64,000 bases of DNA, taken from Gambelia wislizenii (taxonomy: Eukaryota; Chordata; Lepidosauria; Squamata; Crotaphytidae). Both the position numbers and the translations under genes were made by a program. The notes under the pieces were generated by a model. That model was not told the origin of the DNA and made no database searches. It saw nothing but the letters and a program-made list of their open reading frames with translations. This document shows, piece after piece, positions 1,277 through 55,800 of the stretch; within the stretch, counting starts at the first letter, position 1, and every line of letters begins with the position of its first letter. The DNA is taken from assembly GCA_030847615.1 (NCBI GenBank), contig JAUMIR010000012.1, forward strand, positions 3,775,501 through 3,839,500. The letters run 5' to 3'.

Positions 1277-15899
<14,623 letters not shown>

Positions 15900-18828: not shown

Positions 18829-19340
18829 TGCGCATGCGTTGACTACAGCGCTCAGGGGTGAAAAAAACGCAGAAGCTCCGACTGGTGGAAGGGGCGTGGC
18901 TAAGTGGGACAGCGCAGGCGCAATGGTGTAACCACGCCCCTCTTGATTGCAGCGGGTGGGTAGAGAAGGGAGCTCGAGAGGATGCGCATGCGCCTTGGTG
19001 TCCCCACGCGCTGTGTGAAGGAAAGGGCGGTAAAAGGCGACCGGCGGTTGGACTGGGAAGGGAGCGCGAGGGGACCGCGCATGCGCCTTGGCTCTTTGGA
19101 GGTGAAGGCGGTGAAAGAAGGCAGGCGGTTGGACTGAGAAGGGAGCGTGGCGGAATCGCGCATGCGCTATGCCTCTGTGGAGAAAAAGGCGGTAAAAGGA
19201 AACCGGCGGTTAGGCAGGAGGGATTAGGAGCGCGCGACACTGGGAGCGCGCATGCGCCTTAGCCTTCCCACGCGCCCTGAGCGGTAAAATCCAAACGGAA
19301 ATTGGAGAAAGGAGCGCGAAAGGAATAGGGTGCGCATGCG
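18829..19340 (+). promoter_or_regulatory. PLD6: PLD6 promoter: seven ~84-bp repeat units with NRF1-type palindromes
   Basis: The palindrome core GCGCATGCG occurs at 18830, 18984, 19077, 19158, 19248 and 19332, with a variant AGCGCAGGCGC at 18911; spacings are 72-93 bp. Each unit also has GGAGCGCG-like and GGCGGT(T/A)-like text, so whole units were duplicated. TGCGCATGCGC is the consensus for the activator NRF1. The block is CpG-rich and ends about 85 bp before the PLD6 ATG. Confidence 0.85.
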
Positions 19341-19424: not shown

Positions 19425-19854
19425 ATGTGGGGCGTCCACGCGAGGGCCTTGCTGGCCGTGGGGCTGGGCGCGGCCCTGGAGGCGCTGGCCTGCTGGCTGC
19501 TGAGGCGGCGAGGCGAGGCGTCGCCGGTGCGCGAGGTGCTTTTCTTCCCGTCGCGGGCGGCCTGCGTCCAGGAGCTGCTGGCCGAGGCCGAGGCCGGGAG
19601 AGAGGCCGAGTCGGAGCCCCCTCGCCCGCCCTGCCCGTGCCCGCTCCCGCACCGCCCCAGCGCCCTCGGCCGCCTCCTGGCCCGCCTGCTCTCGGCCCGC
19701 CGCTCGCTCGAGGTCTGCGTCTTCGCCTTCTCCAGCCCGCAGCTCCGCCGGGCCGTCGTCGCCCTCCACCGCCGAGGGGTCCGCGTCCGCGTCGTCACCG
19801 ACACCGACTACATGGCCCTCAGGGGATCCCAGATCGGCCTCCTCCGCCTGGCCG
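19425..19854 (+). CDS. PLD6: PLD6 exon 1 coding part (residues 1-143)
   Basis: GC-rich exon from ATG to the donor GCCG|GTAGGT. Encodes the membrane anchor, the zinc-binding region and the first half of the PLD fold, ending [10 protein letters not shown]. The Gly codon is split by the intron. Confidence 0.96.
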
Positions 19855-22800
19855 GTAGGTACGGAGCGAAGGGAGCCCTGGCCGGTCAGTTAACGCCGGC
19901 TCAGTGAGGCTGCTGGAGCCACAACCTAAGTCGCTAAAATGAGTGCGATAGGACCCCCTTATCCGCGGGGAGTGGTTCTGGGAGAGCCGTGGATACAAAA
20001 GACCGTGGATAATAGCGAGCGCCATTGAAAATTATGGGACTTCCGGTTTTAAATACCATCGAGCTGGGGAACCTTGCTTTGTAACTCTTAAACTAAGAAC
20101 AACCCTTGGTTTGCAAAGCTGATTGTAAAAGGAGCAAAAAAGCCAGGATTTGCAGTTCAAAAAATTAGCAAGCGTTCTGGCTTGTACTGTTCTAATGCAA
20201 CTGTTGTATCTGCTAGGTATGTTGATGTTAGAGAAGTTTCCCTATGTGAATAAACAATTACTTTGCTCATTTCTCAAATATTAACATAACATAAATAATA
20301 GCATAACTAAACTATTACAAAGATATATATAAATAAAAATAAAGACACTTGGCATCTTACCTCCCAGCAGTTGGTTAGACAGTTGTCCCTCCACATTCAC
20401 GGATGTGGCATTCACGGTTTTAAGTATTCACGGTTTGAAAATATTCTTTAAAAAATGATAATCCAAAAAGCAAACTTTGATTTTACCCTCTTATAGAAGG
20501 GACACCATTTTGCTATGCCATTGCATAGAATGGGACTTGAGTATTCACTGATTTGGGTTATTCAGGGGGTGTGTGTTTCCTGTATCTATTAAATCAAGGC
20601 ATCTTATTTTGATCTAATGAAAACAAAAATAAACTGCTCCAGATTGTGTAGTAAGTGTCAGGCTCATCCCTGAATTCTGGGTATTGGAGTGGAATTCATG
20701 GAGGCCCTGACATGTAGCTAGTATTTTTCTAGGTTGCGCCTGAGGCGTCGCGGCTGGCAAGGAGAACCCCCTCCCCGCTCTTTTTTGGGGGCTGAGGCCG
20801 GAGGGAACGCGCGCCCTTCGGGGCTCCGGGCGCTTGGCGGTGCCTCTCCGCGGGGCAAGAAAAGCCGCCTGAGCCCGGTGGGAACGAGGGAGCCCCCCAC
20901 CAAGCCTCGCCTGGCCCTCCCCTCCATCTTCCCTCGCTCCCTCCCTCCCTCTCCCCTGGACCTCCCTCCCCTCCCGCCTGGCGACTTCTCCCGGGGCTCC
21001 CGCGGCTGCCTTTTTCGATTGGTTGGGGATGTGTCTGTTTACCTCTGGCTCGAACTTCTCCCAGGAGCAGCTCAACTCTAGGTTATGGGCAAGTCAGAAA
21101 GTCAGATGGATATAACTGAAATGAACTCTCCAAGACAAAAGAAAAAACTGCGATGGAGTGCGTTGGAAATAGGGCTCACTGTTGTTGTCATTCTCCTTGC
21201 TATTGTGGCTATCACCATGATCACTCTGTATGCTACTTATGATGATGGTGTTTGTAAAACATCTGATTGCATAAAATCAGCTGCCCGAATCATTGAGAAC
21301 ATGGATACAACATCACAACCTTGTGAAAATTTCTATCAGTATGCTTGTGGAGGATGGTTAAAGAAGAACATCATCCCAGAGACAAGTTCCCGTTATAGTA
21401 ACTTTGACATTTTAAGAGATGAGCTAGAAGTTGTTTTGAAAGATGTCCTCGACAAGGAAAACAGTGATGATATAGAAGCTGTCAAGAAAGCAAAAACACT
21501 TTACAGATCTTGCATAAATGAGACGGCTATTGATAGCAGAGGAGGCAAACCACTCATCGACATAATGCCAACTTTTTCTGACTGGCCTGTGGCATCGGAC
21601 ACCTGGGACCGTGATTATGGCACCTCATGGCGTTCCGGCCAAGATTGTGTCGGATCGGGGGGCACAATTTACCTCGCAGTTTTGGAAGGCTTTCACGAAC
21701 CTTCTAGGGGTGGAGCTCGGTCTCAGCAGCTCCCATCATCCCCAATCGGATGGACAATCGGAACGAACGAATCAGACTCTGGAACAATACCTAAGATGCT
21801 ATGTGAATTTCCAACAATCTGATTGGGTTGATCTTCTGCCTTTTGCTGAAGTGGCCTACAATAATGCCACTCACCAGAGCACTGGGCTCTCACCGTTCAA
21901 GGTTGTGTCCCTGGGCATGATTTCGGTCCCCTCCCCTTGTTGGAGGGGTCCCCCAACTCTGACCCCGTTTCGGTCTCCCAGTGGAGTCAAAAGGTCAGGG
22001 ATGCGTGGCCTCATGTAATCTCGGCCTTGGACTTTGCCAAAGCACGCTACAAACATTATGCTGATCAGAAACGGGACGCTTCCCCTAGATATGCAGTGGG
22101 AGATCTGGTTTATTTGTCCACCAAATTCCTTAAGTGTCCCCAACCCTCTAAAAAGTTGGGAGCCAAATACATTGGGCCTTTTCGTGTGGTTAGGATGTTA
22201 AATCCTGTGGCTTTTGAACTGTCTTTGCCTAAGTTGTACCGTCATGTACATCCTGTGTTTCATTCTAGCCTGCTCAAGCCCGTGCACCCTCCGGACAAAC
22301 ACCATCCGGCTCCAGAACCTGCTCCTCAGCCGATCCTGGTGGATCAGGACCAACATTTTGAAATTTCTGAGATTCTGGACTCTAGACTTCACCGGGGAGG
22401 GTTACAGTATTTGGTAAGGTGGAAACACCTGCCTTTGGGCCATGCGGAGTGGGTTGCTTCTGAGCATGTCAATGCCAAACGCTTGTTGCGAAAGTTTCAT
22501 GCCCGCTTTCCCGATAAGCCTGGCTGAGAAAGGGGGAGGGTTGGTCTTCAGGGGGGCAGTATGTCAGGCTCATCCCTGAATTCTGGGTATTGGAGTGGAA
22601 TTCATGGAGGCCCTGACATGTAGCTAGTATTTTTCTCAGGCTTTTGGAATGTCTGAGAATTGAGCCAGGCCTCCTGGTTGGCATGGTAACGCAAGTCCTA
22701 CCAGGAATTCAAGGCCACGCTTGCCGGCTACTCTTGCTCCCCCGTGGAATAACTCCCACCCTGCTCTGTCTGTTCTCACGCTTGATGCCTTATTATCTCT

Positions 22801-24686
22801 AGTTTGTTTATCTATACTTCAGTAGCAGCTTTGCCACTGTTCCTTACACATGCTTCTCTTCCAATAAAGAAATTTATTGAAGATATCTGAGTTTGTGTTC
22901 TGTGTACATCACAGTAAGTACTTATGCCTATCAGTCCTGGGGATTTCATTTCATTTGCTACTTCATTTTTAGGAGAGTAGTGCTGAGTCAAGATAGTGTA
23001 AAGCTGTAATGAGTAATGCTGGGAAGGAGAGAGAAGAGTTGTTCAGTGTAGTTTCCTATAGAATCCAACTTAATGACAGGAGAAGCTGTCAGTGTTGGTG
23101 GTAGTCGGGTGGGTGGGTGGGTGGGCGTGCGTTGAAGTGCCATAGGCTGGATCCCATCTATTCTGTGGGCTTATTGGCAAAAGGGCTTGATTGCCCCATT
23201 CCTATCTGAAGATGCTTGGTTGAAGTGCTGCCTAGAAACCTCTGATGTTTTCATTGTGAAGATGGCAAGAACGAGTCAAGACAGTTTCCTGAGGAGTTGA
23301 TTGAGTCACAACTTGGCAATACAGCCAGATTGGCCCCTTCCTTGCTTTTTTCACACACAAAGGGTGAGAGAAGAGTGAATAGGCTCACCAGACCTAAAGT
23401 GCAGGCAGAGCATGCATTAGTCTTGGCTCCTGTTTTGTTTTCCTTGTGAGGAGTAAAATGACTGAGCTGTTGTCTTGAGGTTGCAGACCAGTTAATCTTT
23501 CCACCTCTTTTCCTTTTGAAGGCACTGGGCTTTGGGAGAGGGTGAGACCTTGTTTTCAGGCTGTGTAAGGTCAGAGGTTCCCCTTCTCTGCTTATATGGT
23601 AATATTTAATATACTAGTATTTCAAGATACTTTGTTGTACCCTATGTACAAAAGTGCAGAAATATAAAACGGAACACTGAAGTTAGAATCATCCAAGTCA
23701 TCATATTTTCCCATCACCATGTATGGATGTGAGAGCTGGACAGTGAAGAAAGCTGATAGAACTCTTCCCTGGAAGCCAAGATGACTAAATTGAGGCCCTT
23801 GTACTTCGACGACATTGTGAGAAGGCATGACTCACTAGAAAAGACAATAATACTAGTAAAAGGTGGGCAGGAGAAAGAGGAAGATGGCATACCAGATGGA
23901 TAGACCCAATCGAGGTCCTGAGCCAAGCAGTTGAGAACAGGACGCCTTGGAGGTGTCTCACTCCTGGGGTCGTCATGAGTCGAAGTCAACTTGAAGGCAG
24001 TTAACAAGAACAAACAACAACAAAGGCACCAGTTCCCATCTGATATTGGATGCTAAACAGGGTCAACCATGGTTAGTACTTTGATGGGAACCTGCCAACA
24101 AAGACCAGGTGTTGTTGGCTATATTTCAGAGGAAGGAACTGGCAAAAGCACCTCTCAGGATTCCTTGCCTAAGAAAACCCTATGTACATTTTATATGTAC
24201 TCATATATTCTTTTTTTACCAGCAAAGAGATGCAAGCCCTATTTAGTTGTAAATTGATATGGTTTTATGGCTGGATTTACACCGTTGTTTAGGGAGTATA
24301 TGAAGAATAATCTATGGCTAACTTGATTTATGTCAGCCTTTTTGCTGAATTAAGATTTTTGTAGAATACTGAGGTAAATTTGGCGGGAAGACAAAAAATG
24401 AACTTCTTAACATTGAATTTTCTGTTCTGCTTTTGTAGGGATTCAGGTACGTCATGATCAAGAGTCTGGTTACATGCACAATAAGTTTGCCATAATTGAC
24501 AAAAAGATGCTGATCACAGGCTCTTTGAACTGGACCACTCAAGCGATCCAAAATAACAGAGAGAATGTCCTGATAGTAGAAGACAAAGACTGTGTGAATG
24601 TTTTCCTGGCAGAATTTGAGAAGATTTGGGAGAACTACAATCCAGCTAATTATACATTTTTTGCCACTGAGGAAAGCAGGTATTGA
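19425..24686 (+). CDS. PLD6: PLD6 (MitoPLD/Zucchini), two exons
   Basis: A phospholipase-D-family protein of the mitochondrial outer membrane. It makes phosphatidic acid from cardiolipin and acts as the endonuclease in primary piRNA biogenesis (family knowledge). Exons 19425-19854 and 24439-24686 join to 225 residues (human 252; the C-tail is shorter). An N-terminal hydrophobic anchor lies at about residues 5-25. The CCCH zinc-finger cysteines and histidine follow (CVQELL ... CPCPLPH). Next come [15 protein letters not shown] and [16 protein letters not shown], then the single HKD motif H157-K159-D164 (HNKFAIID) and [19 protein letters not shown]. The ATG at 19425 is the first after the CpG-rich promoter. 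The 4.6-kb intron contains the neprilysin-bearing LTR element on the same strand. Confidence 0.97.
20390..20576 (+). mobile_element. Tigger/pogo-like MITE (family A), copy 3, right end lost
   Basis: CAGTTGTCCCTCCACATTCA starts the element, as in copy 1. Interior text (CCAAAAAGCAAACTTTGATT, CACCATTTTGCTATGCCATT) is closely similar. The right terminal repeat is replaced by TGTGTGTTTCCTG. Confidence 0.8.
20651..20655. repeat. Target-site duplication GTAAG, left copy
   Basis: GTAAG directly precedes the TGTCAGG start of the LTR element and matches 22914-22918. Five bp is a usual duplication length for Ty3/gypsy integrases. Confidence 0.85.
20656..20730 (+). repeat. Truncated 5' LTR (75 nt)
   Basis: All 75 bases match 22562-22636, the start of the 3' LTR. 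After 20730 the sequence leaves the LTR and enters the CpG-rich neprilysin 5' UTR. Only the integrase-recognised outer end is retained; R, U5 and the primer-binding site are missing. Confidence 0.93.
20731..21084 (+). other. MME: Captured neprilysin 5' UTR (inferred)
   Basis: About 354 nt, very GC-rich with many CpGs, joined without interruption to the MME start codon and unlike both the LTR and the surrounding AT-rich intron. It is most simply the 5' UTR of the captured transcript, perhaps up to its cap. I infer this from position; a comparison with the MME locus would settle it. Confidence 0.75.
21085..21630 (+). pseudogene. MME: Spliced, 3'-truncated neprilysin (MME/CD10) retrocopy
   Basis: Neprilysin is a type II membrane zinc endopeptidase (M13) that degrades peptides at the cell surface. 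Codons 1-182 are open and closely resemble mammalian MME. The cytoplasmic tail begins [11 protein letters not shown] and has a basic KKK stop-transfer cluster. The transmembrane segment is at about residues 28-50. The ectodomain start holds [29 protein letters not shown] and [15 protein letters not shown]. No intron is present although the parent gene has several here, so it derives from mRNA. The catalytic HExxH and later zinc ligands are absent, so no peptidase activity is expected. After Trp182 the frame runs about 63 codons into gypsy sequence in a foreign frame and stops at 21820-21822. Confidence 0.95.
21624..22527 (+). pseudogene. Ty3/gypsy integrase C-terminal half with chromodomain, frameshifted
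   Basis: Encodes the integrase from [20 protein letters not shown] (second catalytic Asp in SDRG) through [20 protein letters not shown] (catalytic Glu). A frameshift lies near 21910. The second frame carries [31 protein letters not shown] and a chromodomain-like [20 protein letters not shown] with WKHLP and AEWV, ending at the stop 22525-22527. A C-terminal chromodomain marks the chromovirus branch of Ty3/gypsy. The first catalytic Asp and everything upstream are missing. Confidence 0.93.
22562..22913 (+). repeat. Complete 3' LTR (352 nt)
   Basis: Starts TGTCAGGCTC and ends ACATCACA. It has an AATAAA poly(A) signal at 22863-22868 and is preceded by purine-rich tracts (AGAAAGGGGGAGGG at 22527-22540 and AGGGGGGCAG nearer the LTR) suitable as polypurine primer. 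Confidence 0.92.
22914..22918. repeat. Target-site duplication GTAAG, right copy
   Basis: Directly follows the CATCACA end of the 3' LTR and matches 20651-20655. Confidence 0.85.
22919..23689. other. PLD6 intron; one G-quadruplex motif
   Basis: No gene or transposon recognised. GGGTGGGTGGGTGGGTGGG at 23107-23125 is a perfect five-run G tract on the PLD6 sense strand. Confidence 0.6.
23690..24014 (+). mobile_element. BovB/RTE LINE 3' end
   Basis: Diverged coding text gives [13 protein letters not shown], a signature of the BovB/RTE C-terminus. It is followed by GGGTCGTCATGAGTCGAAGT and CAACTTGAAGGCAGTTAACA with an (AACAAC) tail, the typical BovB 3' end. Confidence 0.8.
24025..24185 (+). mobile_element. 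5S rRNA-derived SINE, copy 1
   Basis: CCCATCTGATATTGGATGCT, AACAGGGTCAACCATGGTTA and GTACTTTGATGGGAACCTGC align with the internal promoter region of vertebrate 5S rRNA. The body (AAAGCACCTCTCAGGATTCC, TTGCCTAAGAAAACCCTATG) resembles that of the tRNA-headed SINEs here. Confidence 0.8.
24439..24686 (+). CDS. PLD6: PLD6 exon 2 (residues 144-225 and stop)
   Basis: Acceptor CTTTTGTAG at 24430-24438. Encodes [20 protein letters not shown] with the catalytic HKD, then [16 protein letters not shown] and [16 protein letters not shown] at 24684-24686. AATAAA occurs at 24692 and 24843; the latter is the nearest plausible poly(A) signal. Confidence 0.97.
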
Positions 24687-43891: not shown

Positions 43892-46800
43892 CATACAAGT
43901 ATTGTCTCTGGAGAGCTTCAATGTCTGAGTTGATGCTGCTAATTTGGGAACGGTGAGTCTTCTCCAGTTCCCGCTCAAGCTCCTCCCGGTGGGCGTTCTT
44001 CATGGCTTCTATGGCTGGGGAAAAAAAAGGAAGATTGCAACTAGTGTAACTAACCCTTGTTTTGCCACCAGAACTATAATCTAATGCTAATTCTTCTGTT
44101 CAGAACTATGTTGCTTTCCTCTTTGCTCTACCTGAGATGGTAGCGGCAGTCTCCTCTGCTAGCAAGCGGTCCTTCTCCTCCCGTAGTTTCTCCAGTTCCC
44201 GCTGGTGCTGCCTTTGCAAATCTTCTATCTTTTTCTGATGTGTCTCTTCCATGGCTGCAAACCCTCGTTCACAGGTTGCCTGGGAAAAGGGGAAGGGGGC
44301 AGTCCTGTTACAATCTATTCATACATGTTGGTGATCCAACCTAAACAGGGACATGTGATTATGTAACTGGATGAAAGGATGGATAGGCAGAGAGATGAAT
44401 ACAACTACAGGCACAATACTGATGGAATAAGCATGCGTGGAAGGGGAGGAGTAATGATCTATTGGCTTGGTTGGAACTCTTAAAGAGGAGATTCATCATA
44501 CTTCTCCAACTGGAACTTGATGGGAAAATTACCTGCAAGCTGTTTGATTAAGGAAAGTGTTTTTTCAGAACCCTCTGAAACAGAAACTTTTGGAGAAATG
44601 AGAGATTTTAAACTTCAGGAAGAGGCTTACTGGTCCTGATGTTAGGCCATTTTGTTAAGATTCGGTGGGGGCAACTCAATCAGCCAAGCACCACTATGAT
44701 ATAATGCAGCTGTTGAGTGGAAGTCATAAGCTAGATTGAACACTTAGCTACAAAATCCATGAGGTGGCCTGAACGTAGTATTACGTTTGTCTGCACTCAT
44801 GCATACTACCTCTCAGAGGCACTGAAAGTGGCTTGGTGTCCATCCTACTTCTGCATCTTTACTCCTTATCACTTTTAATCTGGAGCAAAATATATACCCT
44901 GCTTTGTTGACACCATCCTTTAGAACTGCTTCTCATACAAGTTTTGTACCTGGAGCACACAGGATGTTCACCAAGTATGAAGATGTGAGTACTCTTTAAT
45001 CCCAACAGACACAAGACTTTTGACAGAATTTGTAAGCTTATATTCATGACCTGCCTTGAGGTGAAAGCAGTTCACTATCCTGCACATTTGTGATCATTTG
45101 GCTCATAGTGGAGAACAAAGAGATCAATGCAAGAACAAACCACCCACCCACCACAAAACCCTTCTGGATCACTTTTAAAACCCAAGGGCCTATCTCATTT
45201 TCTCTGTGTTATTTCTTGTGAATAATTCCATGCTAAAACAACTGATCTTTGGTTGGCTAAATAACTTGATGATGTCAGCCTGGCTTTTTCTGCATTAAGG
45301 TACAAAGTTGTAATTGTAAAGTTCAACAACATGTGCAGTGCACAAGTAGTTTTAAGTCAGGGGAATGCTAAAGCCAAAATTCATGCCTAAGCAAATTACC
45401 AAAGCTTGTGGAGAGGGAGAAGGGCAAAGGGTTAGGGCCATTTCTAGAACTACTTGTGCCTATTATGATAGTATTCTCTTTGCTTGTTTGCTTAATGAAA
45501 GACTAGATAAATCAACATATAATTGACGATCTAAACACATTCTGTACTGGTTTTTAATGCCATCTTGAAAAAGTCTTAGTCCTTGATAAGCAGAGTTGCT
45601 GTGTGACCAGCTAGCGACTGCTGTTCCACAGACATTGCCCAAGGTTACTTAAGCCGTAGATTTACCAAGTGAATGGAAGCTTTTAAGAAGGCACAACATT
45701 GGTCCAGAGGAAGATCCAGTGCTTTGCAAGGGAACTTTAAAATAATCTTTTTAGTGCCAGCTGGCCACAGGGGACAAGTACCCTGCCTAACAAGCCTCAT
45801 AGCTGTCAATTCCATCTTATTAAGTACCTGGAGGGTATAAAACATTTTAAGAAAGAGGCAGCTCTTGTACATAGCAGCAGCCTTAGAGAGTGTCTGGAAC
45901 AGTGGATCTTCTCAGAGCAGTTGGATTGTTTTTGACATTGTATTTTTACAATGTGCCTAAAGACACCAGATCCCATCTGATCTTGGAAGCTAAGTAGGGA
46001 CGGCCCTAGTTGGTACTTGGATGGGAGCCTGCCAATGACTATCAGTTGCTGTAAGTTATATTTCAGGGGACAGAAATGGCAAACCTCCTCTGAGTATTCC
46101 TTGCCTAAGGAAAACCTGTGAAATTCATGGAGTTGGCCTAAGTTAACAGGTGACGTGAGGGGCACATACACGCAAAATGCCCCACCAAGTGTGAAGAAAC
46201 CTTTTCAGCCCAAGGGCCACATTTGCTGTGTAAATCACACAGGGCCTGCGTGCCCAAACCCAAATGTTGGTGTGGCCAGAACAGTAATCTCCACCTCATC
46301 TTCTCTATTTTCTCTGTCGTCTCACTACACATACAATCTGCTTTTGCCTCCTCTGCTTTCTCCCTGCGTTCAATGATCTTACATCTTGAGTCTTCCATTT
46401 AAAAGCCAGGGTTGTTAAACTGGATAGAATGCTAGTCTTGGTCTGGGAAGATCTGGGTTTAAATCCTGACTCAGCAGTGAAATAAATTGGGTGAGACCTG
46501 GTGTAATTGTGATAAGTGTGATAAGGAGCACAGTTATCAAATTTGCAGATGACACCAAATTAGAAGGAGTAGCTAATACCCTAGAGAACAGGAACAAAAT
46601 TCAGAATGACCTGGATAGACTGGAGAGCTGGGCCAAAGCTAACAAAATGAAATTCAACATGGAGAAATGTAAAGTACTGCACTTAGGGCGGAAAAATGAA
46701 ATGCATAGATATAGGATGGGAGAGACCTGGCTGAACGAGACTGCGTGTGAAAGGGAACTAGGAGTCCTAGTAGACCACAAGTTGAACATGAGTCAACAGT

Positions 46801-49800
46801 GTGATGCGGCAGCTAAAAAGGCCAATGCGATTTTGGGCTGTATCAACAGAAGTATAGCATCTAGATCAAGGGAAGTAATAGTGCCACTCTATTCTGCCTT
46901 GGTCAGACCTCACCTAGAATACTGTGTCCAGTTCTGGGCACCACAATTCAAAAAGGATATTGACAAATTGGAGCGTGTCCAGAGGAGGGCGACTAAAATG
47001 GTGAAAGGTCTGGAAACGATGCCTTATGAGGAGAGACTTAGGGAGCTGGGTATGTTTAGCCTGGAAAAAAGACGGTTAAGAGGCGATATGATCGCCCTGT
47101 TTAAGTATTTGAAGGGGTGTCACGCTGAGGATGGAGCAGGCTTGTTTTCTGCTGCTCCAGAGACTGGAACATGGAGCAATGGGTGCAAGCTCCAGGAACA
47201 GAGATTCCACCTCAACATTAGGAGGAACTTTTTGACAGTAAGAGCTGTTCGGCAGTGGAACGCACTCCCTCCGAGCGTGGTGGGGTCTCCTTCCTTGGAG
47301 GTCTTTAAACAGAGGCTGGATGGCCATCTGTCGGGGATGCTTTGATCAAGATTTCCTGCGTGGCAGGGGGTTGGACTGGATGGCCCTCGTGGTCTCTTCC
47401 AACTCTACAATTCTATGATTCTATTTGCTATTTTCTTAGTCTAACGTGTCCTACAAGGTTGTCCCCTAGATAAAATGATATAAACCCGCCCATATATATC
47501 AGTGCTACTCGCAGTGGTGATCCATGGACCTGTGCTGTTCTGCAAGCCGTTAACTACCAGTCTGTGGCAAGTTTCCAAGCAAGAAAGAACCAGTAGTAGC
47601 TAACTAGACACAAATGAGGTGCTGGCTCCTGGCTTATTGGGGGAAAATCCCCTGCCAGTCCACAACATCATAAAGCTTAAGACATAGTAATGTACATCAC
47701 CCTACCATCTTCGAAGGAAGGGTGGGATAGAAATATGGCAAAAATAGATTTGTGTTGAGCTATAAATTATCTGGTATGTTCTCATCTCAGCAGCCTTTTG
47801 TGATTGATTTGCTTTTCTGCCTTGTTCAGTTTTGCCTTAGCAAATGTTTGTGTTTTTTGTACCTTCTGGCTTGTTTCCCCCACCCCCCATGAATCAGGCT
47901 AATAGTGTCCAACTACATCAGAAAGAGTGAGAGGAAGAAAATGATGGAATTGATAGGGTGCTACTTAGTAAAGCAATAATCTTCTGGGAAGAATAAAGAA
48001 TTCTGAAATGGTGTAGGATTAATTATACATCTGTTTTAAGTACAAACAGAGCAAACAATAGGTGATGACTTGTTTTGAAACAGAAGCTAATTTCCACAGA
48101 TATAATTATCTATTGTTTAGGTTTATGATTCCTGCTTAACCATAATAAAGTGTGTGTGCATGTGTGTAAAATGGAAGCCCAACATAGGAGAAGATGCTGA
48201 TTATCCCAGCTTAATCTTCTAGCCAGTTGTAGTCACATCCATAAAACTACTTAACCCTTTAAAATCATATTTTGTAGTATTTTGCTTAAGACACATTGTT
48301 TAAGAAATTACTTTTTGGTTGTTACTTCGTGTTTATGTCTAAGGAAAAGTAAAATGGTTTTTAACAAGGATTCCCCCCTTGAGTTCTAGATATATACTAA
48401 ATATTGATATAAAACTGCTACCAAACCTGGATTTACAGAAGCTGGTGAATTCTCTTGGAAAGGTTCACACTTGACCAACCTAAACCTGATCTAAATAATT
48501 AGACAGTGAAAGCCTGTGCAAAAGAAGACACCATGACAGTCTAGGATGACTTTGTGGGGAAAATGAGTTTTTAAAATGAACATAAAAAGCATCCCATGTA
48601 GTCAAGTAAAGAGAATTCATTTGATACAATTTCTGCTTGAAATAAGATATTCCCTTTCTAGACCTGCTATAAAGCAGTTTCCCCTAGTACCATATATTCC
48701 TGCATATAAGACTGCTTTTTAACACTTGAAAATCTCAAAAGTGGCGGGTCGCCTTATATGCCCAGCAGATCCTTCCCCCTGCTGTGAGAATGACTGCTTT
48801 GCCTTTGACGTGTTAAACTGCCCTCCATTTAGGGATTGTATTTTGGTAAACTTGCCAGGAAGATTTCCATTTGCATAGTTTTGGGGATTTCCTCTCCAGG
48901 AGTTTGCAAGTCTACCAATGTGGCTCTAAAATCATTAATGTACTCATTCAAAAATTTGGGATTTGAATGAAACCTTACTTTCCAAAGACTGAACACCACA
49001 GAGATTTTTCAAAGTATCCCATGCTTTTTTAGCTGTTCTCAGTCTTTTAATTTCACAGACTATCCCATCATCTACAGCCACTGAGCTGGCTGGCTGGTGG
49101 GGGTCAGGCTTTCCAGCCAGGTGGCTGGCTGGAGGGGGGGTGGCAAAGTCTATATTTTAACTTAAAAATGGGGGGGGGGTTGTCTTATGCACCCAGTCAT
49201 CTTATACGCCGGAATATACGGCACTTTGTTGTGAGATTCGGTAAAATTCATCCTGTAAAACATCCTCAGCTTATATGGCTATTCCAATTGCTATTCAAGT
49301 AGAACCTGAATAAAAATCTTGCCTTTCTCACCTCCACTTTTTCACAATACTATAAAGGACTCAGGGTCCAAGTTCAACAGAAAAAGAGATGAGATCATAA
49401 CAAAAGGTTTATTTGAAGAACAGTTATAAGAAACCTATCTGGGGATCTTAGTGATAAGGTCTTGTGTAGGCCACATCTGTTGAAGTTGGAAAGCATCCTA
49501 GGACACTCTTTTTATCACCTCAAGCAATTGGTGTCATGCCTGGAAAAGACTGCAATGCAAAATTTCTGTTTCATTTTTTAAGGGCTAGTCTCAAATATGT
49601 TAAGAATTTATTTAAAATTTACTACTTGCATAACTGTCATGGGTTGTGAATCACACCTATGAAAGTTACACACAGAAAATGAAATCAAGAATTTTGCCCC
49701 AGCTCTCTTTTGGTTCTATCCACTAGCCGTCTGATTCTAGATGCTTATTTGCTTTAAAAGAAATGTGTGTGGGGGGAGCATTGATTGCACTAACATGAGG

Positions 49801-52800
49801 GGGGTTTACATTAATAGCTTAGTAATAAGATTATATGCGTCAAGAAAAAAGACCTTAAGATTTTCAAAATCTTTCTGGTATTTCTCCCGCAGTGTGGTGG
49901 CATTCCCTTCAAGGTGTTTATTCTCCAGCTCGTCTCTCATGACATCCATTTGGGCTTCCAGTTCTTGAATGCGCTCTCTAAGCCCATGCATGGCATTCTG
50001 CTCACTTTCTGAGACCTGCATTCCACCAGTGACCTTATTGGCAGCCAATGGTTCTCTTGCAGCAGATGGTATGGTGGCCGATGTTTCTGGGTGCTGCTTC
50101 TGGTACTCATCCAAAGATTCCTGCAAATGCTGTAGCTTCTTGTTGTAACAATCCTGCAAGGCCTGCAGCTCCTCACTGTGGAGAACCTGCAGTTCTTTCA
50201 TCTTGGTCTGGAACTCCTCCTCTAGCGCTTGCATTTGCTCAAGGTGGTGCCTTTCTAAGTTCTCCTTATCTTGCACAAGGACATCTAGTCGGAGGAGCCC
50301 CTCCGTTTGTTCTGTTTTTAGCATGTCCTTAGTCTTGTTTAGCTGCTCAATGACATTTTGGATTTCCTCTTCATATTTACCCTGGAGTTCTGATATATTT
50401 CGGCTCTGCTTATATTCTTCCTCCTCCAGGATCTTCCGTTGATGGTCAAGCTGCTCTACTTTGGCCTTGAGTTCTGCATTCTCTCTTTCGAGCACAGCAA
50501 TCATTTCTGCGTACTCATTCTGCTGCTTTCGGAGCAATTCTTCATACTCTTCTCTGAGAACAGCAACTGCCCTTATGCGTTCCTGACACAGCGCATCAAC
50601 ATTTTGAAGAGAGTTCTTGTACAGCATAGCCTCCTTCGCATACTCCAGCCTTGCTCTGTAAGCCCCGTAACAAACCTGGGCCTGGACAATTGCATCCTGC
50701 ACTAGTAGAGAAGAGTAACGCTCAAGGTCCCCCATGCAAATATCATAGGGAGGACTGCAAGAAATCTTTAAGAGTTTGTGGCAGTCTTTCAGGGCATCAT
50801 CAGGGGACAGAGATAGAAGAGCAGAAGATATTTCTTTGAGGACATTTGCCCTGTCTTTGAGCTGCTGAGCAAGATCATCTTGAACAGAAGCCAGAGCTTG
50901 ACTGCTAAGATCTTGCAAACTGTGGGCTCCTGCCATGGAGTCGTGAAGGCTTACATCCCACACTGTATGGACTGCTTCTGATGCGTCCTCTTGGATTTCA
51001 AGGGCTTTAGAAATCTGATGCATAACACCATCAAAATCGGGTGTCCTGTAAGCTTTAATGATTTCCTCCAACATGCACTTATGTTGCTGAAGGGCTGTTT
51101 TAGTATTGTGGAGGTCTTCTTCAATGGCTTTTAACCTCTGATGAAAGGATTCTCTCATTTTCTGGGCAACAAAACCAAGCTCTGCTTTAATCAGTGTGCT
51201 GTCTGCAACTGACTGAATGAGGCACTCTGGGACATTTGAACTCCTCCCCACCATCTTCTCATTCTCATCTTCATCCATAGCACCCAAGTGCTTCCTTAAC
51301 TCCTCTACCTGACTCCAAAACTGATCTTCCAACACCAGCTTTTTAGATAAGACATCAGCCAACGCTACTGCAGTATGTGAAATATTTGAAGGCTCTAACA
51401 GAACTGCATCCACTGTACCATGAATCTCTCTAAGGGCCAAAGAAATCTTAGAAGATGCATCTCTCAAAGACTCTGCTATCTGGTTGATCAAAGAGGATTC
51501 AAAAGCCACCCTCCTGGAAAGCAACCTCAACTGGTCTTGTACAGAAAATTCCAGTTGCTGCTGCTGTGGAGAAGAAGCTTTCTCCTCTTCAAGGCAGCTG
51601 CCTTCTGCATGCAGAGGCTGGGCTGTAGAGCCCTCTTCTGCTTGATGGTCAGGCAAAGAAAATGTCAGTTTTAACACCTGGATTGCATTAGACAAAGTGC
51701 TTTCCATACTGGATAGGGCATCCAGAAACACCTCTCTCTCTTTTTCCTTCTCAGATCTGGGCAACATTCTTAGCTGTTCTCTACACTGGTTTAAGCAAAT
51801 CAAGGCTTGGTTGTTTCTTCCATGGAGACCCCCCACTTCACTGATGTGGTTCTCAATTAGCTTAAGTTTTGACTGCTTCTCACTTTCCAGTTGGGAAGCC
51901 AGCATGCTGACTTGAGCCAAACTGTCCTGGAGCTGTTCCCTCAGCTGTGCTTCTGTGCTGGCCCACTGGTGATGAAGGGCAATGAGGGTGTCTTGATTAT
52001 GGCCTTGCTGGCTTTCAAGTTTCATGGTCACATCTTTGAGTTTTTCTTCTGTGATATAAAGTTTTGTTTCCAAGGAGTGAATGATCGACAGATAAGTCTC
52101 ATTATCACCTGAGGCCGGATAACAGGGAGCTGGTTCTGATGACATGCTATCTTCAGAAAGTGACCTGTCCTGGCTGGTGTCAGAGGATGTGCTGCTGGTC
52201 CATGTCTTCTCTGATCCATCAGGGTGAACATACTTTTGGCACTGAATGCTGGAGAAACGAATCCTTTGCCTTTTGGCTCCTGGAACTTCTACATCAGGTT
52301 TTGACAAGTCCTTCTGAAAAATCTCCCTTACATTAAAGTCTGTAGACTTTGATGGAGATTTGCATTCTTCTGTGTTCATCACTGCATGCTCAGGTATCTG
52401 CCTCTGACTAGCATTGGGGCCATCGTCATCATCCATACCATGGATCATGCAGTCTGAGTCTGGGAATCTTCCTTCCGCTTGTGAATCTTGCACTTCCTCT
52501 ACAACTTGGCCAGTATCAGCTATGTCTCTTGCTAAATTCTCATCAGACAAGATTTTCAACACATCTTCTTTGGGTTGCTGATTTTCTCCTGCTTCCTCTA
52601 TGCTGCCACAAATGGCAGACTTTTTAAATGAAGATTCACTGAAGTCTTGATCCTTTTTCTCAATAATCTTCAAATGGGTTTCCCTCACTACTCTCAGCTC
52701 TTCCTCCTTCTCTTTCAGGACTTTCTGCAAGTTCTGAAATTGTCCTGATACCGCCTCATATGTACGTTCCAGAGTGTGATAGTTGCTCTCTTCCAGATGC

Positions 52801-55800
52801 AACTTGGCTTGTAGCTTGGCCACCTCATTATCTGACTCGGCAACTTGGTTCATCAGTTCTTGGAACCGGAACTTAATCTGATCCCTTTCCTCCTCAAGAC
52901 TTTTTATGTGGTCAACAAGTTTCTGGATGCTGTCTTCCTTCATTTCCAGCTGCTCCTCCAGTTGGTGGATAATTTCACTGCTTTCAAATTTGGCAGTCAA
53001 TTTCTCTTTCTGCAAAATTTCCATCTGCTGCTCACTATTCTGTAGCTGATTCTCATACTCACTGGCTTTATCCTCTACTTCCTTCAAACTCTGGATCAAA
53101 ACCTGCTTTTCCTTCTCACAGCTTTCTAGCAAAGCCTCATAATTCCTCTGGAGTTTCTCCTCCATTGACATCCGAGACTGCTCACTGGCACTCAACTGCC
53201 GGCTCAGGTCAGCAATCCGATCCTGAAGCCGCTGTACTTCTTTCTGGTAATCTCTTTGCAAAGCCTGTTGTGTCTCCAGGTCCCTCAGCTCTTGGGTCTT
53301 TTCTAACAAGAGTGCTTCTGCCTTCTTCAGCTTCTGCTCACTGGCTTTTAACTGGGAGCTCAGTGCTGTTTCGCTGTGCTGCCATTCTTCCATCTGCTCT
53401 TGAGCTTTCTTCTTTTCTGCTTTCAAGTCGTTCTTCAGCTTGGCCAGCGTCTGCTCTTTGATGGAGAGCTCAGCAGCTGCATTGCTGAGTCTTGCTTGCA
53501 GACTCTGGATCTCTGCCTCATGGTGCCGTATGACATCCTTTGCTTCCCCGTAGCTACGCTTGAGTGACTGAATCTGCTGATTGATCAGCTCCTGGCGCTG
53601 GCATTGGGCTTCCAGCTCACTCTGGAGGTCTCGATTGACTTTATGAAGCCTCTGCCAGGCCCCCGATGAGGAAGCGGCCACCTCAGTCTTTAAAAAAAAA
53701 ATTGATTAAATAGGAGATTAGTAACACTCTTGGCTCCCAGTTCTGAGTGTCACACCTCTGGCCACAGAACAACTCCTTGCAAGTGGTTTGGCCACACAAT
53801 CCATCTGTTCCAATTTTGGATGTTGTCAGTTTTGTTTTGTTTTTAAAATCGATTTTATTCAAAGAAATGAGGGGCAATGTCTTCCAGGTTAACAAACAAC
53901 ATAGATGATGAACACCAAAACAGCTTTAATGCAAGACAGCCTAAGAGAAACAAACTGAATCAAACAAAATGAAAATGATGGACACCACAGGAAGAATAAT
54001 GACATAGGACAAGGAGAAGAAAGGTTGGAAAAGGAGTGAAAACTGCAAGGAAGAGAGATGGTGGCCAGCAATGCCTATGGAAACCTTTTGTAAGGCTGGG
54101 AAAACCTACTTTTGGGGCTCAAGGCTAAATTGGGAATTCTATTCTGATGGATTTTATTTTTGTTTTTGTTGCCTACCCCAACTTTTGGGATGGGGCAATC
54201 TCTAAGTAGGACCAATACTGTGTGTGCCAATGTCTACATTTAAATATGCCTTTGTAAAGCAAACAATGCAAAGCTTCAGATAATGTCCCAGAGAAACGAG
54301 ACCAAGAAGCAACACAACTGCTCTCCCCATTCTTAACAGATGGCAACAGCCATGGTGAACTCATTCCTGCCACAACTTTACAATGAATGTTTTCTGCAAT
54401 ATTGGGGGGGGGGGGAACAAAACAAAACAAAACCCGCAACAACTGTAAGCGATGTTTAAAATATGGAGCCTCTGGATCTGTCTACTGTGTTTGTTGTATC
54501 TTTAAACAAAGACGAGCAAAGAAGGAAAGAAGGGATACGATGAGAACATAAAAGTTAGAACAAGGAATCACTGGAGAGATTCAAACCAAAGCCATGATGC
54601 ATGCACGGAGAAAAACTTACAAAGAATCATGCAAGAGTTGGACAAGAAACAATGTGGCTTGCAGAATACACAAACAGAAAGAGGAAAGAGAAGCACAGCA
54701 TTAAGCCTAATCATTTGGCCTGCCTTGCTGTACTGTGATTTCTGGCAGGGACAGCCCACAGATGTGACACTCAGGTACATTTAAGTCAGTTAACATGCTT
54801 CCACAGGAAAAATAAACCCATGCAATATTATCCACACCCAAGAGAGATTAGTAGAGTGACCTCTCCCCCCTCACCACCCCCAAAAAGCCAGAAGACACAA
54901 TTGGTATCTTGGAAAAAAGAATAACAATAATCATGCTGAATTTTCTTTTTGCATCCACTGGGCTTCAGGAGCTCAACTTGCAACCAAGCTCAAGGCAGAA
55001 GATATGCAGGAAAAGTTACATTGCAAGAGATCAATGAGGGGCTTCAGTTCAACATGCATGTGATCAAGCCCTGAGAATACACAGAACCCTTGACTGAGAA
55101 GAAAACCTGTAATATTTGACATATAAACCGAGAATGGGACAAAGCTCTGGTTTTTTGCAGAAAAATATAACAATATGTTCATACAAAGTTGCAACTACCA
55201 ACTTTTCACAAGTATTATTTGCTTCTCCACTGCCCAAAACAAAACCAACCAAGAAGGAACATTTTTTTTAAAAAAAAGGAAGAAAAGACAGAGATCTTTA
55301 GTTCTACAAGCCAAAGTACAATGATCAGACTGCACATTCCAAGTCGGGCTCCTAGACTAAATGGCATGAAATACCTGAGGAGTCTGGTGCACACTAATGA
55401 AATTAATGCCATTATTTTGGGCCAGAAAATCTCCATGGCCGTCCACTTCAGTTTCCAATGATGAGGGTGGGGGGTGGGCGAGGCCAACAAGATAATTCCA
55501 CACCACAACACCTTCCCTGGTGTATCTTGAGACAGACTGTATTTCTTTTGAGACAGAAAGGACTCTATATAACTTTGGCCCAAGACCAAGAGAACATAGA
55601 TGTATATTTGCCAGCTTGAGATTACAAGAAGAAGAATTAAATAGACCGAGTGGGGGCATCAGTTTTCTTCTACTGCCATGCAAGATACCCTGTTTTAAAA
55701 TACAATTCATCTCCAGTCACCACTAAAGAATCCTGGCCAGTGGTCAGGTCATCTCTTCCCAAGTGCTCAGAATTGTGGGCATGGTGTGAAGGTCCCACAC

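Follow-up and report, generated by a model that had tools for sequence, protein, structure and literature searches.

In Gambelia wislizenii, the first intron of the PLD6 gene carries an insertion in which a spliced transcript of the neprilysin gene MME has been captured by a Ty3/gypsy chromovirus, and there is good support both for this capture and for its having been a single integration event. The insertion was read directly from the window, by which we mean the whole 64,000-nt stretch of DNA that was analysed. It lies on the same strand as PLD6, between the two coding exons, and measures 2,258 bp. From left to right it consists of 75 nt of LTR U3, a single A, a spliced MME portion of 899 nt, 937 nt that hold the chromovirus pol tail and the polypurine tract, and a complete 352-bp LTR, while the MME part and the pol tail overlap by the 6-nt word TCATGG (Table 1). 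The host sequence therefore sits between the LTR ends of one element, the 5' LTR being partial, and inside one target-site duplication. A sequence-only reading of this DNA had placed the insertion at 20656..22913 between GTAAG duplications, which proved correct to the base. With a probability of roughly 0.87, we attribute the insertion to a Tf1/sushi-type chromovirus and a spliced MME transcript that were combined by template switching, likely in one faulty round of reverse transcription, the product then likely being inserted into PLD6 intron 1 by integrase.

Table 1. Features of the insertion and of the flanking PLD6 exons, in window positions
Feature	Position	Strand	Basis
PLD6 coding exon 1	19425..19854	+	Pfam PLDc_2; protein search; GT follows
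Left target-site duplication GTAAG	20651..20655	+	Read directly
Truncated 5' LTR, first 75 nt of U3 only	20656..20730	+	75/75 identical to 22562-22636
Single base A, matched by neither contiguous U3 nor MME parent	20731..20731	+	Window vs parent comparison
MME exon 1 (5' UTR), 343 nt vs 347 in parent	20732..21074	+	Loss of one 4-bp repeat unit; 5 substitutions, and a sixth at the exon's last base
MME exon 2, start codon at 21085	21075..21244	+	Identical to C22 block, flanked by AG and GT
Chimeric reading frame, 245 aa (182 MME codons and 63 codons out of integrase frame)	21085..21822	+	ORF; Pfam
MME exon 3, 36 nt	21245..21280	+	Match to parent, splice flanks
MME exon 4, 162 nt	21281..21442	+	Match to parent, splice flanks
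MME exon 5, 81 nt	21443..21523	+	Match to parent, splice flanks
MME exon 6, 96 nt	21524..21619	+	Match to parent
MME exon 7, first 11 nt, ending in TCATGG (putative template-switch site)	21620..21630	+	Parent/element/insert comparison
Chromovirus pol tail: integrase core end, Tf2-1-like SH3, chromodomain, polypurine tract	21625..22561	+	Genome search, Pfam
Complete 3' LTR, 352 bp; predicted R start 22821; AATAAA 22864-22869	22562..22913	+	Sequence, family comparison
Right target-site duplication GTAAG	22914..22918	+	Read directly
PLD6 coding exon 2	24439..24686	+	Pfam PLDc_2; AG precedes

A whole-genome search with positions 20731-21630, which passes over simple repeats and very common words, gave seven matches (7/7 candidates scored): the window itself and six blocks on contig C22. 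The latter belong to the parental MME gene, which runs on the minus strand from ~38.139 to 38.079 Mb with its six exon blocks spread over about 60 kb. Splice sites flank these blocks, and in the insert the six parental introns have been removed exactly, leaving exact seams, which means that the insert is a copy of a spliced mRNA. The alignment to MME thereby bears out the claim of an intronless MME 5' UTR followed by 182 intact codons that had been made from the window alone. That reading had also suggested looking for further LTR-MME chimeras in the genome, and no sibling copy was found by this search in the assembly of one individual. Parental exons 1-6 measure 347, 170, 36, 162, 81 and 96 nt, and, as a detail beyond the sequence-only reading, the insert runs 11 nt into a seventh exon, before which the parent has an intron of 109 bp.

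Compared with the spliced parent (903 nt), the 899 nt of the insert differ by six substitutions and the loss of one 4-bp repeat unit, and MME exons 2 to 6 are identical in the two. Five of the six substitutions turn a parental CpG into TpG or CpA, while the sixth is an A to C change; the matching parental stretch holds 41 CpGs, 32 of them in exon 1. Such a loss of CpGs would be the expected fate of CpG-rich promoter-side sequence placed in methylated surroundings, and the capture event looks recent.

The MME frame stays open for a further 63 codons, which do not correspond to the integrase frame, and ends with a stop at 21820-21822. Pfam detects a partial Peptidase_M13_N domain in this chimeric frame (profile positions 1-98 of 381), and a hydrophobic anchor is seen by eye in its MME part. 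Since the zinc-binding half of neprilysin is not within the captured portion, peptidase activity is not expected, and the chimera is predicted to encode at most a membrane-anchored stub. A protein search with the chimera, in which length limits left out full-length neprilysins and which is informative for similar-length chimeras only, yielded 53 relatives among 418 candidates. The best of these covers 74% of the query, corresponding to the MME part, and the largest coverage among the matches listed is 84%.

The remaining part of the insertion derives from an abundant element family. Genome searches with the LTR and the integrase tail gave 2,275 and 2,111 first-look candidates, respectively, 40 of which were scored in each case, and relatives among the loci compared reach 98.6% identity in the LTR and 99.0% in the integrase. 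In the pol tail, the Pfam domains SH3_Tf2-1 and chromodomain (PF00385) exceed their cut-offs, and the match to the end of the integrase core stays below the one set for it. The family matches and domains agree with the fusion to a chromovirus integrase and a complete 3' LTR, all in one orientation, that the sequence-only reading had described, and the integrase frame of the insert is broken relative to the family copies. Relative to the full-length family copy L075, the insert comprises only the start of U3 and the part from ~4702 to the end (the last 1.3 kb of the element), and it lacks 5' R, U5, the primer-binding site, gag and reverse transcriptase. In L075, the sequence that follows the 5' LTR (GAAAGCTGCTACT..) has a 12-nt complement at LTR position 260; self-priming is therefore predicted, and the RNA start is placed at this position. 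An exact 24-nt pattern across the self-priming site occurs 97 times in the genome, the site being absent from the insert itself, and an exact 31-nt polypurine-U3 pattern occurs 268 times. The available text of PMC10085805 gives self-priming as a common feature of the Tf1/sushi group. Judged from its sequence, the element is a Tf1/sushi-type chromovirus, a likeness that rests on two features, the chromodomain and the self-priming arrangement.

Where MME gives way to the element, parental exon 7 reads CACC TCATGG ACAG, the element copy L045 reads CGGAT TCATGG CGTTCC, and the insert reads CACC TCATGG CGTTCC. The 3' junction is thus located inside exon 7, at a 6-nt word common to parent and element and not at a splice site. 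By a rough estimate, six shared bases would be found at a random join about once in a thousand, and such a word is as expected for template switching.

At the 5' end, a proper 75-nt U3 terminus is set against the MME 5' UTR with one extra A between them, and comparison of the window with U3 and with the MME parent revealed no clear microhomology at this join. The base preceding the MME match is a G before a G, which is not a typical transcription start. A query across the left junction (20651-20790) had a match over its full 140 bases nowhere but in the window, and no second U3-into-MME locus was found with it (40 of 1,652 candidates scored). Both LTR ends of the insert contain a run of five Ts. 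The exact 21-nt pattern GTAGCTAGTATTTTTCTCAGG that includes this run, and that misses copies with further changes in those bases, occurs once in the 2.47-Gb genome, namely in the insert's own 3' LTR; among the 29 LTR loci compared, the run is one T shorter in the six nearest. Since the run is shared by the LTR ends and the exact pattern gave no other locus, the two ends very likely stem from one template and probably from a single copying event.

The first 57 nt of U3 (window 22562-22618) are predicted to fold as single-stranded DNA into a hairpin with a 7-bp TGTCAGG/CCTGACA stem and nested GAATTC pairing. Its minimum energy of -12 kcal/mol compares with a mean of -6.42 for shuffled sequences (z -2.78), and 2/200 shuffles are as good. 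In the MME insert U3 breaks off 18 nt past this hairpin, and in a second insertion, L062 (C1:483452060 region, locus positions 330-2786), it does so 5 nt past it. L062 has an AGAAC duplication and 62 nt of U3, two of which also belong to pol, and then continues as pol from about 3591. Its 5' layout is therefore like that of the MME insert, with a short U3 joined directly to internal sequence, and these two insertions make up the short-U3 class.

We propose that the RNA of the element and the MME mRNA came together in one particle, where self-priming would have started minus-strand DNA, which would then have moved to the 3' end of the former RNA. The minus strand would then have copied the LTR, the polypurine tract and the integrase tail before jumping at TCATGG into MME exon 7, a jump of which the junction itself is observed. 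From there copying would have proceeded along the mRNA, whose spliced copy is seen in the insert, as far as its 5' end or close to it, the cap end being part of the proposal. A capture 5' of pol leaves no primer-binding site, without which the standard second transfer would have been impossible. The 75 nt of plus-strand U3, begun at the polypurine tract, may have been joined to the minus-strand end with one extra base, by a putative route that ends in the join observed. In both short-U3 cases, the nascent plus strand of 60-75 nt U3 may have folded, left its template and joined an available minus-strand end. The outer ends, U3 and U5, would still have been usable by integrase, resulting in the 5-bp duplication; 5-bp duplications also flank the family copies L062 and L066 (CGTAC). 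In its general form we put this idea forward only tentatively: even where a primer-binding site is missing, self-primed chromoviruses might complete a DNA fit for integration if 60-75 nt of hairpin-forming plus-strand U3 are stitched onto any cDNA switched to, which would graft the 5' half of any mRNA, cap end included, and leave a short-U3 class of insertions across vertebrate genomes.

An alternative account differs from this proposal at the 5' end only and has the capture in common with it. An ordinary double switch would have produced a full 5' LTR, a leader and MME, and a later or concurrent deletion would have removed the sequence from U3 position 75 to the MME 5' UTR. Family copies L074, L076, L078 and L079 do have internal deletions, L062 could be another such case, and both short-U3 insertions could instead be deletions. 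In the MME insert, however, the deletion must have one breakpoint in the U3 end and the other where the MME homology begins, and no longer sibling copy emerged from the DNA search. We regard this account as the less likely of the two, but as a serious rival. The overlaps at internal joins are 15 nt in L074, 12 in L076 and L028, 2 in L062 and L079, and 0 in L078, as taken from BLAST ends against one copy, with L077 being more complex. L074 (C33:138693165-138694379, locus 566-1780) was rejected as a second capture: its LTRs start 864 bp apart, and its interior is element leader and polypurine tract. It is a very short copy with 513 bp between the LTRs and a leader-to-polypurine-tract deletion at the 15-nt overlap. 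L077, L078 and L079 were likewise rejected as captures, being family copies that are internally deleted or rearranged.

We also compared 29 other loci (L045-L073) over ~1.5 kb upstream of the integrase segment, a sample of best-scoring copies only, some of which are probably duplicates (e.g. L052/L053, which have the same differences). The sequence continues as element in 24 of them and does not in five (L048, L054, L062, L066 and L068). Within the DNA examined, none of these five discontinuous loci has non-element sequence between the LTR pieces of one insertion, and MME-type capture is rare in the sample. In L048, L054 and L068 the sequence upstream of the element is non-element sequence. 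The family U3 start is absent there within ~3.9 to 4.3 kb upstream, as is a duplication beside the join, and these loci are therefore read as 5'-truncated. L068 is an element copy missing its 5' part, and the sequence around it resembles the 3' end of a CR1 element. In L066 (locus 153-496), a divergent U3 is joined to an R/U5 piece of the MME insert's family and is followed by a jump into pol, an arrangement suggestive of a strand transfer from one element RNA to another.

An intronless 5' MME fused to the element would likewise be obtained if an element residing in MME had given rise to a read-through or spliced MME-element transcript that was reverse transcribed. Because the join is within an exon, off any splice site, splicing into the element does not account for it, and parental exon 7 is unbroken around the junction point. 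Moreover, no LTR or integrase match was detected in six stretches of the parental MME gene comprising 16,006 bases (including 9.3 kb with exons 6, 7 and downstream sequence). This origin is thus very improbable.

The sequence-only reading had likened the insertion to the cellular genes carried by acute retroviruses. Its claim that spliced MME was captured by a Ty3/gypsy chromovirus stands, but the likeness does not. The same orientation, the LTR ends and the intact codons would fit a replicating element that moves a host gene, whereas the insert has nothing of the element but the U3 start and its last part, without 5' R/U5, a primer-binding site, gag or reverse transcriptase, and the chimera is single-copy in the assembly. 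We consider a transducing element of this kind highly unlikely. Since no sibling copy was found, nothing shows that the insert ever moved again, and without a 5' R region and a primer-binding site the product is predicted to be immobile. It is likely that the insert is a dead end and not a virus that carries a gene.

It is no more probable that the insertion is an assembly chimera, given the matching 5-bp duplication, the five-T run at both LTR ends, the directional CpG decay relative to the parent and the location of the site within a 30.9-Mb contig. A processed pseudogene produced by a LINE and subsequently combined with an LTR element would be intronless as well, but it can be dismissed, as the insert has no poly(A) tail, retains the 5' and not the 3' end of the mRNA, has the 6-nt word at the junction and is enclosed as a whole by a single 5-bp duplication.

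The host gene PLD6 belongs to the piRNA pathway. Its protein search (7,998 candidates scored) was led by squamate mitochondrial cardiolipin hydrolases, and the 20 best-scoring relatives listed are all squamate, with Sceloporus undulatus and Rhineura floridana first at 80% identity. The sense AATAAA of the 3' LTR is now within the PLD6 intron and could shorten PLD6 transcripts, which is the one plausible effect of the insert predicted from its sequence. Nothing upstream of MME exon 1 was carried along and the U3 piece is without R; activity of the insert's own is not expected. Just 5' of PLD6 exon 1 lies an 81-bp tandem repeat with 2.4 copies and GCGCATGCGC motifs (window 19014-19211). The window further contains a tandem array of a 99-bp unit (6554-7277; 7.3 copies, 90% matches), reverse-transcriptase-like open frames that are of LINE type by eye (46470-47345 and 171-779), and a coiled-coil-type open frame of 1,299 residues on the minus strand (49806-53705). 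The last of these resembles MPRIP, which is a PLD6 neighbour in other vertebrates. Neither RNA families, at the gathering threshold, nor tRNAs were found in the 64-kb window.

LTR-mediated retroposition of host mRNAs was said by the sequence-only reading to be known in principle in animals. This is confirmed by the available parts of PMC5408686 and PMC8232201 (citing Tan et al. 2016, Genome Res.), which describe host mRNA capture via microsimilarity and template switching. The MME insert resembles the cases described there in having a spliced host mRNA inside LTR-element ends, and the process is alike in that switching takes place within virus-like particles at short stretches of similarity, often with a partial parental mRNA as the outcome. 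Consistent with such a retrocopy, introns are absent, the parental gene is still present (C22, exons 1 to 7 seen) and a 6-nt word marks the 3' switch. According to the accessible text of PMC5408686, however, retrocopies acquire LTRs and hence a promoter, whereas the MME insert has 75 nt of U3 as its 5' LTR and no primer-binding site. In reptiles, crocodilian endogenous retroviruses have similarly taken up host mRNAs, those of KIT-ligand and nectin3 (PMC4299795). As far as the available portion of that paper goes, these are lineages with open captured frames, signs of purifying selection and nectin3 in six insertions, unlike the single, non-enveloped and immobile-looking MME copy. The maize LTR retrotransposon Bs1 also holds host-gene pieces; in contrast to the MME insert, this plant element has pieces of three genes, and the later chimeric gene is transcribed and translated, as stated in the accessible parts of PMC13317346 and PMC5408686. 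A fusion of two elements is reported for plants in the available part of PMC1950507.

A literature search of titles and abstract openings, with most subscription journals outside its coverage, returned no description of a neprilysin capture by an LTR element. The process behind the MME insert is already known, and the insert adds to it a clean new case whose 5' end is unusual. Captures that are young and little changed are informative on the transport of host mRNA by LTR elements because their switch points can still be read. The present case suggests that integrase may need only a short U3 piece at one end and that loss of the primer-binding site need not stop the process. For genome surveys, it provides a signature in which a 5-bp duplication is followed by 60-75 nt of U3 that lead into the 5' end of a foreign mRNA.
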